From Brachionus manjavacas (lineage: Eukaryota; Rotifera; Eurotatoria; Ploima; Brachionidae), in the NCBI GenBank assembly GCA_019054805.1, contig JAHQIY010000018.1:1240001-1304000 (forward strand): a stretch of DNA of 64,000 nucleotides, written 5' to 3'. Positions 23,254 to 64,000 of this stretch are shown piece after piece. The notes beneath the pieces were generated by a model. The model was not told the DNA's origin. It saw nothing but the letters and a program-made list of their open reading frames with translations, and searched no databases. Position 1 is the stretch's first letter; each line of letters starts with the position of its first letter. A program made the translations under genes and the position numbers.

Positions 23254-24561
23254 CAGTTTAAAATTTAACGAATGATATTCAAGACACATCAGTTTAAAAT
23301 TTAACGAATGATATTCAAGAAGCCTTATAAATCGCAAATGATCGATACGAAATCAAGATAGCTACTTAACTATCTTGAACGAAATTTGAAATCAGAGCTA
23401 ACTAGCATAAGAAGCATGTTCTTGAAGACAAACTTACTTATTTGAAAGACTTCAATCAATCGTAACCGAAGCATTAGGAAGCACTTCTTAGCATAAAATT
23501 GGAAAATAAAAATAATAAAAAAACATTATCATTTTAAAAAATGATAAACTTTCTACCAGCGATCCAGCTGAAATTGCAGAATTATATTTAAACAAAATTT
23601 ACTGATAGTCAAACTTTGATGAGACAAAGCTCGTCTACCTTTCCAATAGGAAGCCAAATGCATATAACTAGATATGAAATGATGAAAACGCTAAAAACTA
23701 CCAACTCAAGAGCAGCAGCAGGTTTTGATCTAGGATCCAATAAGGTATGTAAAAATCTCCCTTTCTCAATACTTGTCGAAATACACAAGATATTCAACAG
23801 CTCTCTAAATCATGGCCACATACATTCAATTTTGAAAAAATCAAAAATTATCATGATTCTTAAGAACAATAAACCTCCAGATAGTTTAGTCTCTTACAGG
23901 CCTATCTCCCTACTCAGTTGCTTAGCTAAATGGATCGAAAATATTGTAAATCAAAAGATTCAAGATTGGACAGAAAACTAAAAAATTCTACCAAACTGTC
24001 AATCTGGCTTCAGAAAATCCAAAACCACCCAAGATCACATATTGAGACTAAACCAATCAATAACAGATGGATTCAATCGCAATCAATTAACTGGAGCTAT
24101 CTTCTTCGATCTTGAAAAAGCCTTTGACAAAACATCGCACAATGCAAAATTAAAAGAACACAATCTCCATAGTATTGGTCCTGATGTTAAAATACCATTT
24201 TTTGCAGATGACCTCTGTATTTGGGCATCCAAGGCCAGTAAAAGAGAAATTCAAAAAATTCTTCAAAATGCAGTGAAAAGAATCACAAAATACTTCAAAA
24301 AGGGGATTTAAAATTAACAAAAGGAAAACTTGCTACACAATATTTACCAAAGCTGGTCTTCGAAAAAATTATGAGAAAACTTATGGAATGAAAATAAAAA
24401 TTGGGAATTCACATATTCCTCTTGACCCAAATCCAACATTCTTTGGTATTAAAAAAGATCCCAAAATAAATTATTAAGAACATTTGAAAACTATCATTTC
24501 AAAACAAATTTCCAAAATAAACTTAATCAGAAAAATAAAGAGTTTTAAATGGGGATCCTGT
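23254..24561 (+). pseudogene. Decayed jockey-type LINE reverse transcriptase remnant
   Basis: Broken reading frames carry reverse transcriptase blocks. These are SDPAEIAELYLNKIY near 23560, KKSKIIMILKNNKPPD then YRPISLLSCLAKWIENIV in 23616..23981, then DLEKAFDKTSH and the catalytic-loop remnant FFADDLCIWA in 24042..24311. The section between DLEKAFD and FADD is mostly deleted, and stops and shifts occur throughout. A 36-bp tandem duplication (units starting at 23254 and 23290) lies just upstream. The remnant fills much of the spacer between the inverted arms and ends at the right-arm boundary. Confidence 0.8.
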
Positions 24562-25859: not shown

Positions 25860-27219
25860 ATGAGTGAAGTGGACTTTTCTAAGCTTGATTTGGCATTTAT
25901 GCTGGACACTACATCAAGCATGGGCTCATATATAAACCATGCTAAAAAAGTAAAATCTATTTTCAATCCATTCAAAAGTCTATTTCACTTTTAATGTCAA
26001 ACTGTTCACTATTTAGAATATAACAAATATATGTGATGAAATAATCAAATTGGAAAAATGTACTCTGAGAGTGGGCCTTGTCAATTATCGAGATCATCCT
26101 CCTCAAGACACAACGTATGTTACTCAGGTCAATCAATTTACCGATGATATTTTAAAAGTAAAATGTACATTAACAGCTACAATGGCTCAAGGAGGTGGTG
26201 ATTGTCCAGAGTCGATGTGTTGTGCGTTTAGCGATTGTTTGGAAAAATTGGAGTGGAGAAGCGATGCAGTCAAAGTGGCTATTTTGATCGCTGATGCTCC
26301 TCCGCACGGCCTAGGCTGTGTAGGTGATTCGATGCCCAATGGATGTCCTATTAAGAATGATCCAGTTGAAATAGCTCATAAAATGGCTCAAAGGGGAATA
26401 ACTTTGTACTGTGCTGGCTGTGAGCCTGCTCTAAATGCGTACAGACAATTTTTTCTGGCATTATGTTTGATAACTGGTGGCCAATATGTAAGTCTTGAAG
26501 ATGCGGCCAATTTGTCGAATGTAATTGTTGGTGGCACACGAGAAGAAATATCAATGGAAAAAATGATGGCCGAAGTGCATAACGATTTGATGAGAGAGGC
26601 AGCAGAAAAAGGCAAAAGAATTGACGAAGAAGAGCTAACCAAACGAGTACATGAAATACTAAACTCGAAAAAGTCACTACAAAGCATAAACAAGCTCAAA
26701 ACAGACATACAAATAACGGACACCACAAAACAACTGTCCCAAGTGACAAGTCTTGAACAAATGAAAAAGTTTGCTTGCGACCATGACGTCAAATTGGTCA
26801 ATGATCCATATTTCTTTTCGAAATCTACTTTTTCGACAAAAGCCACATGGTCATGGTCACCATCGGCTTTGCCACTTGGTAAAAGAAAAGTTGTCAAAAA
26901 GACTTCGATAAAAAAAACAACTCCAAGTCGAAGACAAACAAAATTAAAGTCAGCACCAAAAGATAAGTCCAGATCTAGATGGGTTGGTGGATGTCGACTG
27001 AGGCGAAGCAAACGAATTAAAGAGATTGAAGAGAGAAAGCTAATCAAAGAATCCATGCTAATCAAAGACGACGATTCACAAACTCGTCAATTGAACAAAA
27101 CACTTAAAAGAAAAAAAAGTGAAAAATCAAAAAAATCTCTCAATCACAAGAAAGTGATCAAAGTTGTGAAAATGAAAACACTAACAAAAAGACTAAAACA
27201 GAATCGTCTCCTACTCTAA
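25860..27219 (+). CDS. VWA-domain protein, right copy (different frameshift)
   Basis: Exons are 25860..25949 and 26017..27219, reading 430 aa. The VWA domain is identical at the protein level to the left copy over the compared stretch, with MIDAS LDTTSSMGSY and the same later motifs. This copy keeps A8 at about 26910-26917, so it reads on into a basic region with WVGGCRLRRSKRIKEIEERK. A second A run (about 27129-27135) has seven bases where the left arm has eight. From there the frame diverges (KSLNHKKVIKVVKMK) and stops at 27219 instead of reaching the acidic end near 27362. The two copies are therefore broken at different places, and each is intact where the other is damaged. Confidence 0.75.
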
Positions 27220-55320: not shown

Positions 55321-56262
55321 ATAATTTAAACTATTAACTATGAATAAGAATGTGATTCTGCTATAAGTTGCTTAGTTTTTCCCAAAATTATCCCCAATCC
55401 TTATTTATTATTGATTAAATTTTAAAAATTGAATTATTTTTTTTTTTAAATATAATATTTTTTATTTCTCTGAAAATTGAAAAAAAAAATTGATGTGACC
55501 GAAAATAGGTTCACTTGGACCAGTTGAATGATCGTTTGTCAAATTTTGACTGACCACGTGAATTTTTGGCTTGTTAGTTGGCCGCGCGTACAGTTCCAAC
55601 AACACTAGATTTAAAGCTGAATAATTTTGTCTAATTAAACAAAAAAGGCTCTAAAGTATTTTTTTTAATTAGGTAGAAGTAAGATTTAGATTAAATGCAT
55701 TAAAATATAACAATTGTTTGTTGTCGATGAATAAAATACAACAAAATAAAGCATTTTAAATTTTGTTTTTTCCATCATTTTTAAATTAAATTCAGTTTTC
55801 TTAATAATAATCACTAGATATCAAATTTAAGTAGACACAAAAATCAAATTCTTAATATTAAAACTTCTCACTTATTTGTTCAAGATTTGAAAATTAAATT
55901 GAATTAAATTGTTTTAACTTTTTCCTCACAAGGTATCTATTTATCTTTATTTTGATTATTTTATTAAATTAATTTTTGAAATTATCAAATAGAAAAAAGA
56001 TATTTTATAAATAAACTTTAAATCTTTTTTCTAACAGTCTTTTTGTTTTAGGTTTCAAACACATTCAAACATTTTTAGCAGTTAGTGTTTTTTTATTATT
56101 AAATTCAAAAAGAAAATCAAACAGAAAAACGATATATTATTTGAATAATTAAATTTAAAACTCTTGATCGATTTTTAATTCAAGATTCTTGAATTTAAGA
56201 TCAATTTGGTTCAATATAAAGCAATTCAAATTTTTAAATTCATAAAACCATCAAAAAATAAA

Positions 56263-56946
56263 ATGTTCAAAAAAATTTTGATACTTTTTGCTCTCTTTTC
56301 AGTTTTCAAATGTAAATCAATTGAAAAAAGACAATTTTGCAACGATTTCGCTCCAGTAAGCGGAGACTGCTCGAAATATTTTAGATGTTCAAATGGAAAT
56401 TCATTTATTGAGCAATGTCCAGCAGGAACACTTTTTGATCCTAATCTTAAAGTTTGCAATTGGGCTGCTCAAGTTACTAACTGCAATTCAAATGTTTCTC
56501 CAGCCAATTTGGCATATGGAAGTTCATGCAATCCTAATAATGATTACACTCAAGTTCCAAATGATTGCTCACGATACTTTAGATGTGTAAATGGTATCTA
56601 TCAGGTGCAACAGTGTCCATCAGGAACATTATTTGATACAAACTTACGACAATGTGTCTGGGCCGAAACAGTAACAACATGTTTTAATCCTCAAAATGCC
56701 TATTATAGCACCAATGCATATCAAACTTACAATAATGGCCAGCCTTTATATAATCCAGGATATAACACTGGACAATCGTGTACCCAATATCAAGATTACA
56801 AGCAAGTTCCAAATGATTGTTCAAAATATTATAGATGTGTTAATGGAGTTTTTGTGATTGAAGCTTGTTCAAATGGATTGTGGTTTGATGCAAATTTGAA
56901 GGTCTGTAATTGGCCAAATCAAGTTCGAACATGCAATCAATTTTAA
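56263..56946 (+). CDS. Secreted protein with three chitin-binding (CBM14/peritrophin-A) domains
   Basis: A 227 aa single-exon protein. I take the ATG at 56263 because it begins a good signal peptide (MFKKILILFALFSVFKCKS); an in-frame upstream ATG at 56206 would put 19 polar residues in front. Three six-cysteine CBM14 domains follow: Cys 26-74, 89-140 and 173-224, each with the pattern C-x9to12-C-x5-C-x9-C-x12-C-x8-C and a conserved DCS-x-Y-[FY]-RC core. A Tyr/Asn-rich spacer separates domains 2 and 3. Such proteins bind chitin in cuticle, jaws, gut lining or eggshell. No enzyme domain is present. Confidence 0.93.
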   Translation: MFKKILILFALFSVFKCKSIEKRQFCNDFAPVSGDCSKYFRCSNGNSFIEQCPAGTLFDPNLKVCNWAAQVTNCNSNVSPANLAYGSSCNPNNDYTQVPNDCSRYFRCVNGIYQVQQCPSGTLFDTNLRQCVWAETVTTCFNPQNAYYSTNAYQTYNNGQPLYNPGYNTGQSCTQYQDYKQVPNDCSKYYRCVNGVFVIEACSNGLWFDANLKVCNWPNQVRTCNQF

Positions 56947-58645: not shown

Positions 58646-60225
58646 TTAGACGGTATTGTCATTCGATGCAGAATGTTTATCATTTCCATATTCAAGCGTT
58701 ATTAATGAGATAGTGAAATTTTGGTAATTGACTGAATATTCAAACAATGTGGATGCATTATGTGCAACTAATTCAAAGCTGTCAACCAGTGATATATCCT
58801 TGCGTATTAAACATATCTGTCCATTTGAACAATTTAAATTGGTTCCACTTGAAAAATAAACAAGGTGATTATTGTCAAACAATGATGTTGCCACATTTAA
58901 ATTTAAATTTTTCCTATTGTGACATTCACTTAGATAAAAAACATCAGCTTGTTTGTATCCAAAATAAAATTTGACATTTTCTTTTTTTGAATTAAACGAT
59001 TGGATATTTTGAAACATTATTGTCAAATCACTTGTTCTCTTTACCTCAAAACCAAAATCCAAAAAAGAGTAATTAATTTTCATGAAAGCATCCAATCTAA
59101 ATCTTTTAATTCCAATGCGAACAGGATCATATTGTTCAAACAATCGCAATTCTTTGTCACGTTGTTCTTTGGACAATCGTTGAACGCTTGCACTCTCAAT
59201 CGAAAGGCTGCCATACAAATGCAAACCAGTCAGCTTTGTTGCTCTACTCAAACTGTCACCAATTAACACAGCAACACATGTATACGATTGGCCTTGTGAA
59301 TGGTCATTGATTCACATTAAATCAAGGTAAATTGTCTAGGTTTCACGTTTACCTAGATTTATTTACAGGGTTCCGGTTAGGGAATTATTCTATGATTATA
59401 TTTAAATCGAAAGTAATTGATGAAAAGCCAAAAATAAACCTCCAAAGCTAGAGAACCATTATTAAAAATGACTATTATTTTTAATTGTTAAATAAGTTAA
59501 ATAAGCATTAGTAATTATTTTAACATAAATGTTCCCTAAACTGCGCAAACGACTCATTTCAATGCGAACTGGATCGTTTTGTTCAATGTATTCAAATTCA
59601 ATCTCAATTGACAAACTGCCGTACAAGTACAAACCATTTAATTTTGTTGCACGACTCAATGCCACATATAACAATGATCGTTTCAACGAATCGCCAATAC
59701 AAACGGCAACACACTCGTAAGATTGTCATTGTGATTTGTGTATTGTCATTGATTCACATTCAACAAGTGAAAATTGTTTTCGTTCAACGTGATAATTGCC
59801 GCCTGATTTTGGTCTTTTTATAGTTTGTTGCTCACAGACAAGAGCAGTCAATTGTGGACTTATTGATTGCTTTAATATTAGCGAATCGTCTCTTATCCAT
59901 TTTTGTTTTTCATTTTCATTACGTGACAAATGACCAACATCTTTATCAGCAAATTCCAAATACAAACGTTTTACCAATGGTTTTTCGTCAGTTTTTTCTT
60001 TGTAAATATCACATGTTTCAAACAACCAACTGCACCGTTGAACAAACCATCTTCCGTACGCAAATTTGTCGTAATCATATACTTACAATTTTGTTTTAAT
60101 CGAAGCAAAGTCGGCATGCCACACGTTTTGTTCAAATCAATTTCATTGCGTGCACTTGCAACAAGATTTTGGCCCCATTTGATTGTTCGTTTTTGCCACG
60201 CCCAAACCAATAGCTCTATTTTCAA
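58646..60225 (-). pseudogene. Helentron-type PIF1 helicase / endonuclease remnants
   Basis: Decayed frames read 5' to 3' on the minus strand. They show a PIF1-family C-terminal half: YMITTNLRTEDGLFNGAVGC (60225..59971), then FSLVECESMTIHKSQ (about 59770-59726), then LLYVALSRATKLNGLYLYGS (59686). A second, separately truncated copy of the last motif (LSRATKLTGLHLYGSLSIES) begins at 59269. It continues in one frame into an apurinic-type endonuclease domain (LTIMFQNIQSFNSKKENVK, ADVFYLSECHNRK, down to 58646). A helicase joined directly to an endonuclease is characteristic of Helentron/Helitron2 rolling-circle transposons. Stops and the internal repeat show that at least two copies are broken here. 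Confidence 0.75.
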
Positions 60226-60626
60226 TCAAATTGCCTGGCATCAATATCAATTTTTTTTTTTTTTTTTTCAATCTGTTCAGAGCAGACATTAGTCTTACAT
60301 GCGAACATGGTGAACACACTCATTTATTAAAAATAAAAAAATTAAAATTAAATAGATTTTTTATATAAATCAAACTGTTTTAATATAAATTTAAATATAA
60401 ATAAATAGTACAAAATAGAATAAGAAAGAAGAAAGGAGAGAGAAAGGTGATTTGACATTAATTTAGTTTTTTTTTTTTTTTTTTTTTTTGTATTTTACAT
60501 AATTAAGAAAATTATAGATGTAATCTATGTCAAATTTGGGAAACATTTGAATAAACTCAATAAAGTGTAGATTTACATTATTAATTTTTCTTTGTCTAAA
60601 AAGCGATAAATTTAAATCTAGATCTT

Positions 60627-62165
60627 TCAGTGTAAAAGTGTTGATAAATTTAGAAAAAAAAAGGAAAATGTTAATTCACCAAAAGAGTTGAACCCTAGAC
60701 TTCCTGGAGTAAAAAATTTATTACTGTTTCTTAAATTATATGGTTTGTTAAGTGAATCGTTCACAATAAGTTGAGTTTTAAGTGGAAGAGGTGATTCTGG
60801 GTTCTTTAGAATCTTATAAGAAAAACAGCAAAGCTTAATGATCAGCCTATGTTGAAATCCGTAAAGACCTAGAATTTCAAGATTATTATTTATTGTATTG
60901 AAATCATTAGGATAATTAACTTGGGCTTTGAAGTGAATCAATTTGAAAAGCGAAATATAATATGAATTTGATAGAGATTGAATAGCAGGCTTGGAGAAAT
61001 AGATGGTTAGTGATAAACAATAATCAAAGTGTGGCAAGATGAACGTTTTAAAGAATTGTATTTTTACTGGTTTTGAAAGAAAGAATAATTGCTTAATTGA
61101 GTTTAGCTTTTTATTAATAGTAGCTTTTAGATTGTTAACGTGACTAGTAAAGTTTAATTTATTATCTATTATAACACCTAAAAGCTTGAATTCAGGTACA
61201 ACCTCGATTTCGAATGATTTAAAAGAAAATGATGCTGGCATTACTATGTTTTTTTTGTTATGGATAATCATTATTTTAGTTTTATCCCAGTTGATATCGA
61301 GACGATTAAACGAGCACCATTTGTATACTAGTTCTAAGCAATTTCTGAAGTTGTCTATTAAATCCTTTAAATTTGAACTACAGAAATTGATTGTGGTATC
61401 ATCAGCAAAAATTTTACAGTTTATGTCATGATTTTTAAGAAAAAAAGCTAGGTCATTTATGAAAATTAGAAAGAAAAGAGGACCTAACACACTGCCCTGT
61501 GGAACTCCAAGGTCTATTTTTGAGAATTCAGAAAGAGTGCCACCGAAGGAAACCGCTTGTTTTCTTCCAGAGAAATAATTTTTGATAAGTTCAAGAGCGT
61601 TTTCGCTAAGCCCTATTCTCTTTAATTTGCTAAGTAAGAGATTTGGGTCTACCAAGTCGAAAGCCTTGCGAAAGTCAATAAACAAGAAAAGAATATATCT
61701 TTTGTTACGTGATGCGTTAATTTCTGAAATAAGTTCATGCAAGGCCGTTTCACAGGAGTGATCTTCGCGGAATCCATACTGGCATGGAAATAGAATTTTA
61801 TTGGTGGTCAAGTATAGAGAAAATTGTGATGCTATAATCTTTTCAAAAATTTTTGATATTACAGGTAGTATGGAAATTCCTCTGTAGTTGTTGATGATTT
61901 CGATTGGACCTTTATTTTTGTATATAGCTGTTACTATTGCGCATTTCCATTCATCAGGCACTCTGCAATAATTAATACAATCATTGATAAGTTCAGTTAC
62001 CACTGGACCAAGAATTGCTGCTGAATCCTTAAAGATTTTGACTGAAATATCTGAGATTCCAGGACCATTGTTGGGGTTCAAATTACTAATCAATTTAACA
62101 ACAGAATCGACCGATATTAAATGAAAATCAAAAGTTTTTTCTTTTAAATTACTAAAGGGACACAT
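60627..62165 (-). CDS. LINE reverse transcriptase region
   Basis: A 512-codon open stretch with complete reverse transcriptase motifs: NNGPGISDISVKIFKD, WKCAIVTAIYKNKG, YRGISILPVISKIFEKII, CQYGFREDHSCETALHELIS, LFIDFRKAFDLVDP, DLGVPQGSVLGPLFFLIFI, then the catalytic FADDT and INWDKTKIM. The C-terminal part (FILPHFDYC) is the usual LINE thumb region. The frame extends upstream of the Met to about 62262, where it meets the preceding linker in another frame. It would copy the element RNA by target-primed reverse transcription in the nucleus. Confidence 0.9.
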   Translation of the reverse strand: MCPFSNLKEKTFDFHLISVDSVVKLISNLNPNNGPGISDISVKIFKDSAAILGPVVTELINDCINYCRVPDEWKCAIVTAIYKNKGPIEIINNYRGISILPVISKIFEKIIASQFSLYLTTNKILFPCQYGFREDHSCETALHELISEINASRNKRYILFLFIDFRKAFDLVDPNLLLSKLKRIGLSENALELIKNYFSGRKQAVSFGGTLSEFSKIDLGVPQGSVLGPLFFLIFINDLAFFLKNHDINCKIFADDTTINFCSSNLKDLIDNFRNCLELVYKWCSFNRLDINWDKTKIMIIHNKKNIVMPASFSFKSFEIEVVPEFKLLGVIIDNKLNFTSHVNNLKATINKKLNSIKQLFFLSKPVKIQFFKTFILPHFDYCLSLTIYFSKPAIQSLSNSYYISLFKLIHFKAQVNYPNDFNTINNNLEILGLYGFQHRLIIKLCCFSYKILKNPESPLPLKTQLIVNDSLNKPYNLRNSNKFFTPGSLGFNSFGELTFSFFFLNLSTLLH

Positions 62166-62236
62166 GTTAGAGAGTTCATTAAATGTTTCATTTATGAAAG
62201 TAATACAGGTCCTTAAATCAGATAATGAATCTGATT

Positions 62237-63567
62237 TTATATCAGTGAAAAATGATTCATTAGCTTGCTAATTTCTGAGGCCTCAGATGCGGAGTTATTA
62301 CCTTTGATAATGAAGTTCGGAATGATACTATTTTGCTTGTCAGACTTTAATTTTATTGTTGATCTATAGAATTCATAAAATTTTTTGGAATTTTGAAAAT
62401 CATTTAATTTTTTATCTTTGAAATAAAGGACTAATTTTTGTTCGGTCAAAGTTTTTATTCGCTTTTTTTCTTCTACATACGATAAATAAAAAGAGCGATC
62501 ATGTGTGTTTTTCCAAGACTTATAAAAACCATCCCGTGATTTAGAAAGAGAATTAATTTCATTATCTGACCATGGGCTAATAGAATTTCTTTTATCAATT
62601 TTAACATTTTTTGTTGGTGCAATGGAATCTACTATACTTAAAATTGAGTTCTTAAGGGAGTTCCATTTATCATTAGGTAGATCAAATGAAGATAAAGTTA
62701 AATAAAAAGATTGAGATTTGAAGTCATGGTGAGAGATTTTCTCTGAGATTTTATAAAGATTTTTCTCAGAAAGATTTCTCACAGATCTGAACACGGAGGT
62801 GCTTTTTATTGAGGAAATGTCTAGCGTGATAACCAACATTCTATGATCACTTATAGAAGTATCAATGGATGAAGTCGATTTTATTAGATTTTGGTTATGC
62901 AGTACGAGATCTATTTGAGAAACACTTGTTATTAATTTTTTTTCCTTCTGAAAAAATTTGGTTGTGACTCTAGTTGGACCTAAAACGAAGTTTTTTAATG
63001 CGTAACTTGAAAGAAAACATTTTAAGATTTCATTTTTTTTTAAAGAATCTATATTAAAATCACCAATAAGAAAAAGGGGATCTTCGATGTTTATGGTTAA
63101 GAGGAAATTTCCAATTTTATCAAGGTAATCACTATCATTAATATATCTGTTTGGGGCTTTATAGCATGAGAGAAAATTAAAGCATATTTTTTTAAGTAAA
63201 TTTGAAGATAAATACTTTCGATTGATGGTAAAATTTTTGTTTTCCTTATAGTGTATTCGTATCGAACATAGACGAGAACACCTCCGCCTTCTTCATTTTC
63301 TCTATCGAGACGTATGATATTGTAGAAAGAATGTTTAAGAGAGGATAAAGGGTGGATAAAATCATTTAGAAATGTTTCATTGAGCATCACTATATCAAAT
63401 ATTCTTAAGTTTAGGACTGAGAATATTTGGTCTTTTTTATTAAAAAATCTGTTAACATTGAAATGGAGAATAGAAAAATTGCCTGTCGCTTTAGTTACTT
63501 CTATAAGATCGTTAACAAAGTCGGAACTAATTAATCTTGATGATGGGTTTAATTTTTCTGTATTTAG
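62237..63567 (-). pseudogene. LINE endonuclease and linker, broken by frameshifts
   Basis: The apurinic-type endonuclease starts right after the UGA at 63568 (ILHFNVNRFFNKKDQ, FDIVMLNETFLNDF, GGGVLVYVRYEY). At an A7 run (63187-63193) the frame must move by -1 to continue with SCYKAPNRYINDSDYL, FLIGDFNID, DLVLHNQ and SDHRMLVITLD. From there the linker stays open to 62237. Near 62262 a second shift joins the RT frame (NESFFTDIKSDSLSD). Without the first shift the frame ends at 63097. The residues expected of an active endonuclease core (N, E, D/N, SDH) are all present. Confidence 0.8.
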
Positions 63568-63999
63568 TCAAGAACATGAGGTAGTAAATGAATTATCGAT
63601 TCCTTTAATAGAGAGAAGACCTTTAGAGATAATTTCATGAAAAATTAACTTACGAAAGGCATCTATTTGATCCTGTTTAAAGGTTAATTGGGCGCTATGG
63701 ATAAAATATCGAAAAAAAAGACAAATGAAAATACCACAGTCATACAGGTTTGTCTGAATTGGAAAAGAAACATTAGAGTAACACCAGTTATCTATAATCA
63801 GGTTAAGATCCTTTAGTATTAATGTTAAAAATTTGTTTACCTCCTGATAATAAGTGTTGCTGTTTATTCCTAGAGAGTCATATAAGATTATTGTTGATTT
63901 TGAGAAATCAAGAATTATTAGCCGCCAGTGATTCATAAAGCAAGTTGGAATAATTATAAAATTGTATTTACTTACTTTATTGAGTTTTAGTCTGTACTT
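63568..63999 (-). CDS. Ulp1-type (C48) cysteine protease domain, partial, N-terminal to the LINE endonuclease
   Basis: Open from the window edge for 143 codons, then UGA at 63570..63568. It carries the SUMO/ubiquitin-like protease signature: MNHWRLIILD (catalytic His in HW), ILYDSLG (Asp), and FPIQTNLYDCGIFICLFF (oxyanion Gln and catalytic Cys in Q-x5-DCG). The domain's N-terminal part is beyond the edge. The frame is the same as that of the endonuclease, and the stop is UGA followed by CUA, a context known to favour readthrough. Ulp1-like proteases are well known in DNA transposons; I am not sure how often they occur in LINEs. Host-gene origin with LINE insertion is less likely given the frame continuity. 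Confidence 0.8.
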   Translation of the reverse strand, partial: KYRLKLNKVSKYNFIIIPTCFMNHWRLIILDFSKSTIILYDSLGINSNTYYQEVNKFLTLILKDLNLIIDNWCYSNVSFPIQTNLYDCGIFICLFFRYFIHSAQLTFKQDQIDAFRKLIFHEIISKGLLSIKGIDNSFTTSCS

Positions 64000-64000
64000 G

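Follow-up and report, generated by a model that had tools for sequence, protein, structure and literature searches.

LINEs such as SART1 and L1 are laid out with a first ORF followed by an ORF for the endonuclease and reverse transcriptase (RT). The way in which the second ORF is translated is settled for few LINEs (PMC5972666, PMC5009743), and the routes described are reinitiation and 2A (PMC5972666; also PMC5009743, PMC4120745, PMC7943196). For SART1 reinitiation has been reported, whereas for L1 it is a proposal (PMC5972666). An Ulp1-like cysteine protease N-terminal to the LINE RT is carried by NeSL and Utopia of nematodes, and in Utopia the same protein includes zinc fingers and a restriction-like endonuclease C-terminal to the RT (PMC4640811). 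An in-frame stop that limits the amount of polymerase is found in gammaretroviral gag-pol (UAG readthrough in murine leukaemia virus), plant viruses, and alphaviruses (PMC5009743). High readthrough has the consensus UGA CUA, with UGA CUA G the highest; this is the UGA CUA (G) context of the mammalian readthrough genes LDHB and AQP4 and is resembled by the alphavirus type, and UGA CAR YYA is given as a consensus for certain viruses and for yeast (PMC4359377).

The window analyzed here is a stretch of 64,000 nucleotides (C18:1240001-1304000 of a 114 Mb genome in 61 contigs), and one end of it holds a copy of a LINE on the minus strand. Comparison with other copies makes it likely that this is a gag-pro-pol-like LINE producing its endonuclease-RT by programmed UGA readthrough, with the window copy a defective member. 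Unlike Utopia, the LINE has an APE-like endonuclease N-terminal to the RT, an ORF1 before the protease, and a conserved stop between protease and endonuclease. Unlike the readthrough systems of gammaretroviruses, plant viruses, and alphaviruses, it is a LINE with a SENP/Ulp1-class protease and no downstream structure in pseudoknot-free folding. It differs from LDHB and AQP4 in that the extension codes for an endonuclease-RT and, in the C13 copy, stays open over 917 codons, and from SART1 and L1 in that the stop lies in the same frame, with no in-frame AUG in most lineages. An N-terminal protease in a LINE had been called unusual in an earlier note on this DNA; Ulp1 is in fact already known in LINEs of the other endonuclease type (NeSL and Utopia). 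In the literature surveyed, judged mostly by titles and the openings of abstracts and with subscription journals largely outside it, we found no description of readthrough in a LINE and no Ulp1 in an APE-type LINE. Searches of viral contigs, with protease and endonuclease queries, and of genome contigs returned no relatives.

Layout of the window copy and its protease

The LINE copy in the window has the following features.

63571-63999, minus strand: Ulp1/SENP-type (C48) protease, catalytic C-terminal part, with His-Trp, Asp, and Gln...Asp-Cys-Gly (Pfam Peptidase_C48, E 1e-13); extends past the window
63568-63570, minus strand: UGA stop at the protease/endonuclease junction, the proposed readthrough codon (TGA in 21/24 distinct junctions)
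63565-63567, minus strand: CUA, the codon directly 3' of the stop (UGA CUA being the high-readthrough consensus of PMC4359377)
63472-63564, minus strand: remainder of the 32-aa linker from stop to endonuclease, which begins at the CUA (63567); no ATG in any frame in the window copy
63100-63471, minus strand: APE-type endonuclease, N-terminal part, in the frame of the protease (Exo_endo_phos, E 1.5e-4; aligned with four other lineages)
63187-63193, minus strand: A-run whose length breaks the frame in the window copy (compared with other copies)
62240-63292, minus strand: open segment with the C-terminal part of the endonuclease and the region up to the RT, frame changed by the A-run (ORF reading)
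60630-62267, minus strand: reverse transcriptase, third frame segment (RVT_1, E 4.5e-35)
60270-60629, minus strand: end of ORF2 and 3' UTR (tail of the C13 copy similar by eye)

The earlier note had read a C48 protease frame with its His, Asp, and Gln/Cys residues open to the window edge, and this was borne out: the frame 63999-63571 is uninterrupted for 143 aa and crosses the edge. Past the TGA that closes it, and beginning with the CTA, 156 sense codons follow in the same frame down to 63100, so that the proposed continuation into the endonuclease holds; it does not hold through the whole LINE, as ORF2 of the window copy is spread over three frame segments. The first break is at the A-run, which has one A fewer than in the C17 copies, the second lies near 62260, and by eye there is probably a third near 60640. 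The window copy is a defective, dead element. A programmed -1 frameshift at the A-run was considered and rejected: the C17, C2, C28, and C13 copies have one more base there and stay in frame, and the C18 and C4 copies, each one base shorter, differ in sequence. No copy was shown to be intact from end to end; in the C13 copy, the 917 open codons past the UGA are followed by a TAA that breaks the match to the window RT.

The order of Pfam matches, with an APE-like endonuclease N-terminal to a non-LTR RT, is that of an APE-type LINE, with the reservation that the Exo_endo_phos match past the stop, at 22.1 bits, falls under the curated cut-off of 24.5. In the same Pfam search, RVT_1 was the only family in 60630-62267 and the APE-like endonuclease lay upstream; with its frames separated by a stop, this arrangement is, as far as Pfam shows, distinct from that of NeSL and Utopia.

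Extension into the flank, as the earlier note had advised, brought the protease frame to 357 codons in total, with an in-frame TGA and an ORF1 ahead of it. The protease is thus not at the N-terminus of the element, where the earlier note had placed it. Its catalytic His, Asp, Gln, and Cys residues occur in order, with Pfam E values of 1e-13 to 2e-19 in A1, B1, and B2 (lineages are listed below). When a profile of five protease copies from four lineages was compared to PDB, SENP1 was matched at E 7.7e-37 with all four catalytic residues aligned; matches to SENP8 and SENP7 were weaker (E no better than 6e-13 and 7e-9). For the 143-aa window fragment, a structure predicted without an alignment had a mean pLDDT of 43.9 and was left unused.

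The SENP1 match makes it plausible that the protease acts on SUMO-like conjugates. Our first guess as to its role is that it might strip SUMO-like modifiers from the element's own proteins or from host silencing proteins, and our second that it might cleave the polyprotein. Self-cleavage, which the earlier note had suggested, was considered at a diglycine and dropped: by eye GG is absent from the linkers compared, and we saw no sequence support for self-cleavage.

Conservation of the junction stop and its context

Searches of the genome gave at least 85 RT matches and at least 41 protease matches. From 81 loci, with overlapping loci merged by genome position, 24 distinct junctions were read; among these, pairs on C17, C23, C13, and C2 are near-identical and are not independent. 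Eight loci were short of the junction or their sequence was not taken, and stand outside the count (C1:1256k, C8:3317k, C9:1990k, C1:780k, C32:298k, C2:9091k, C2:9113k, C2:9272k). The lineages and the codon following the stop are as follows.

Lineage A, the window family with subfamilies A1 and A2: CTA
Lineage B1, C8:2851k: CTA
Lineage B2, C23: CTA
Lineage B3, C31:415k and C3:1846k: CAA
Lineage B4, C31:166k: CAA
Lineage B5, C35:362k: CTA; decayed, with a frame shift in an A-run past the stop
Lineage B6, C8:4203k and C2 copies: CTA in the C2 copies, CTG in C8:4203k
Lineage B7, C12:747k: CTA; decayed, with a second stop (TAA) four codons on

TGA occupied the protease/endonuclease junction at 21 of the 24 distinct sites in this genome, and in 8/8 lineages whose frame was resolved on the protease side. 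Of the remaining junctions, C10:147k has CGA, with a frame break or deletion close by; the decayed copy C5:3761k has TTA, with a TAA one codon earlier; and C9:144k has TGACTAG near the expected place, in a copy whose frame could not be settled. Because the protease also precedes the endonuclease in these other lineages, a chimeric insertion, which had been put forward as a possible explanation, is excluded.

The codon after the TGA was CTA in 14 of the 21 junctions, CAA in three, TTA in two, and CTG and CAG in one each. In the single CAG case, C10:3591k, homology stops one base past the TGA: the protease is kept up to there and is followed by sequence matching only short repeats in other loci; this junction was counted as TGA but left out as context. 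Weaker or partial contexts are UGA UUA (C17 copies), UGA CAA UCU (B4), and UGA CUG (C8:4203k). The UGA CAA UUA of B3 fits UGA CAR YYA fully, and that of B4 fits it in part; tobamovirus is an example of this type of readthrough. As the earlier note had stated, UGA CUA is a documented readthrough context, being the consensus derived in PMC4359377.

Both sides of the junction stop are under purifying selection: between A1 and A2, dN/dS was 0.225 in the protease, with C18 and C4 as the pair compared, and 0.203 in the endonuclease, with C17 and C13. A stop and context that are kept, in a frame open and selected on both sides, form the sequence pattern of programmed readthrough, and the conservation of the stop supports that reading of the junction.

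RT identity between the window family and the B-type copies is 44-53%. The context codon CTA is not simply inherited, because agreement of leucine codons between lineages is about the chance level: in shared Leu columns of five lineages the codon was identical in 36/145 pairwise cases (range 1/16 for A2-B1 to 4/7 for A2-B3), compared to 23% expected from Leu codon usage alone. Across the nine frames counted, 1.8% of sense codons are CTA and 4.0% are CAA or CAG. The chance of the motif in 8/8 lineages is about 1e-10, and in five (A, B1, B2, B3, B4) about 6e-7; both serve only as a guide, since they assume independent lineages and motifs set beforehand, neither of which is fully true. In the endonuclease tree, B2 and B4 are sisters with support 100/99, B5 joins them with 93/94, and B1, B3, and B6 group with 86/91; the deeper forks and the position of a protease-less family, described below, are weakly supported. 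If the B1-B3-B6 fork holds, the CTA and CAA contexts were probably exchanged twice, because the sisters B2 and B4 have CTA and CAA and B1 (CTA) groups with B3 (CAA) and B6.

Translation of the endonuclease-RT

The rival reading that survives best takes the UGA as the ordinary end of a protease ORF, with the endonuclease-RT restarted by termination-reinitiation, either at an overlapping stop and start as in SART1 or as in L1. Beyond these precedents, it can draw on an AUG that overlaps the stop (AUGA) in 5/8 junctions examined, and on an in-frame AUG at codon 12 past the stop in B3. The overlapping AUG, however, lies in a frame other than that of the endonuclease in 5/5 cases, which argues against a restart of the SART1 type yielding the endonuclease, and its frame closes at the fourth codon in A2 and B2. 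The linkers from stop to endonuclease (32 aa in A, 28 in B1, 26 in B2, 29 in B3, 26 in B4, and 29 in B6) are all in frame, and an in-frame AUG before the endonuclease is absent in A, B1, B2, B4, and B6, or five of six lineages examined. Moreover, reinitiation would need neither the shared frame nor CUA or CAA past the stop. We regard it as unlikely. The linker varies and shows no clear constraint (dN/dS 0.87 in A and 0.47 in B2/B4, from few sites).

Removal of the stop at the RNA level before translation of the endonuclease-RT, by splicing of an intron or by A-to-I editing that turns UGA into a Trp codon, appears very improbable. LINE copies come from RNA, yet those examined here retain the stop. 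Pseudoknot-free folding of nine junctions gave no structure past the stop that exceeded shuffled controls (z -0.5 to +1.7), and 60001-64000 had no Rfam match, to SECIS or another known RNA element, at E up to 1. That the UGA arose by nonsense mutation in this copy or a recent ancestor would be in keeping with the damage elsewhere in the copy, but can be given hardly any credence when TGA stands at the same site in 21/24 junctions and eight lineages and is the sole stop within 732 to 996 matched bases of B1, B2, and B4, and the poor match of codons between lineages argues against a spread of one stop by recent gene conversion.

With programmed readthrough, the element RNA would encode, in one frame, ORF1, a SENP1/Ulp1-class cysteine protease, and the endonuclease-RT. 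Most ribosomes would halt at the leaky UGA, followed by CUA or, in two lineages, CAA, and release a product ending with the protease, and a few would use a near-cognate tRNA to incorporate an amino acid and continue into the endonuclease-RT. Much ORF1/protease and little endonuclease-RT would result, the readthrough being due to the short context, with no downstream structure involved. Ribosomal readthrough, the product ratio, and the action of the protease on SUMO-like conjugates are what we infer from the sequences. If this is true, the retroviral answer to the problem of polymerase ratio arose in LINEs too, and the copies would serve as natural replicates of UGA CUA and UGA CAA in an invertebrate-like genome. 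A SUMO-protease-like enzyme would then take part in LINE replication, and may counter SUMO-dependent silencing.

ORF1, protease-less relatives, and surroundings

Examination of the region beyond the window edge revealed that the in-frame TGA upstream of the protease lies in CAC TGA CAT TTG. The main body of ORF1 is in a frame other than that of this stop in the window copy and is continuous with it in C10:3591k. The stop is present in 5/5 A1 copies with the region (four UGA CAU UUG, one UGA UAU UUG), and C10:147k is without the region; some A1 copies have extra stops or frame shifts around the ORF1/protease junction. In A2 the stop is UAG CAA CUA (3/3) and in B1 UAG CAA CGA (1/1). The first in-frame AUG past the stop is at codon 109 in A1 (C18), 190 in A2, and 10 in B1, and a restart is therefore possible in B1. 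Single copies of B2 and B4 have TAA CAA CAA and TAA ACA GTT at this junction, and the B3 copies have private stops, none of them shared, with ORF1 and protease looking fused.

These data are no more than suggestive of a second leaky stop, between ORF1 and protease, in three subfamilies (A1, A2, and B1). The additional in-frame stop (UGA CAU in A1, UAG CAA CUA in A2, UAG CAA CGA in B1) would be a second step of the same kind as the first. We give even chances to the fuller proposal, that this is a LINE group with two successive leaky stops in the order ORF1, UAG CAA CUA/UAG CAA CGA/UGA CAU, SENP-class protease, UGA CUA/UGA CAA, endonuclease-RT, in which the level of polymerase would be set by readthrough and contexts were probably swapped twice.

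A coiled coil and an RNA-binding domain were read by eye in ORF1; no Pfam family, including Transposase_22 of L1-type ORF1, scored above cut-off in the ORF1 frames of A1, B1, B3, and B4. Around the protease/endonuclease junction, A1 and A2 (C18 and C4:351k) are about 89% identical in DNA, compared to 27% for the matched part of their ORF1 proteins. The A2 ORF1 is slightly nearer to the ORF1 of B1 (31%) and of the protease-less family (29%), and it looks as though ORF1 may have been exchanged by recombination between these LINEs. In the B2 copies (C23), a 28-aa unit, QQQQDTNLAKSSTSNSAESNSKLTKLVV, occurs 13 times in the part read, between ORF1 and protease; other repeats were seen by eye at this place in B3 and B6.

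The protease-less family (C3, C6, C12) is similarly distant from the window family in its RT (48% identity), has RT frames of up to 1004 codons, and carries a C2H2-like stretch immediately before the endonuclease. All four copies read (C3:5125k, C3:5136k, C6:756k, and C12:255k) are open into the endonuclease without a junction stop. In C3:5136k and C12:255k the frame opens at an AUG ahead of the zinc-finger-like stretch (C2H2 E 0.008, under cut-off), and in C3:5125k and C6:756k it opens inside it. In a further family (C12:292k and C1:1954k), ORF1 and ORF2 are in differing frames.

Closely similar LINE pairs lie 2.6-10.5 kb apart at C17:674k/682k, C23:743k/752k, C3:5126k/5136k, and C13:1681k/1684k, as if by local duplication. 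Within the window, the 3' end of the LINE adjoins what by eye is a decayed Helitron-like helicase with an endonuclease-like stretch after it, at 58646-60225 on the minus strand (weak Pfam match to UvrD_C_2, E 0.0036, at 59465-59725). On the plus strand, 56179-56946 codes in one frame for three chitin-binding Peritrophin-A domains (CBM_14, E 3.9e-40), a sign that the host is probably an animal; 23592-24179 is a remnant of another LINE RT, 26% identical to the RT studied here; and 26017-27219 is an open reading frame of 400 aa, matched weakly by the VWA domain (E 0.0027, under cut-off).
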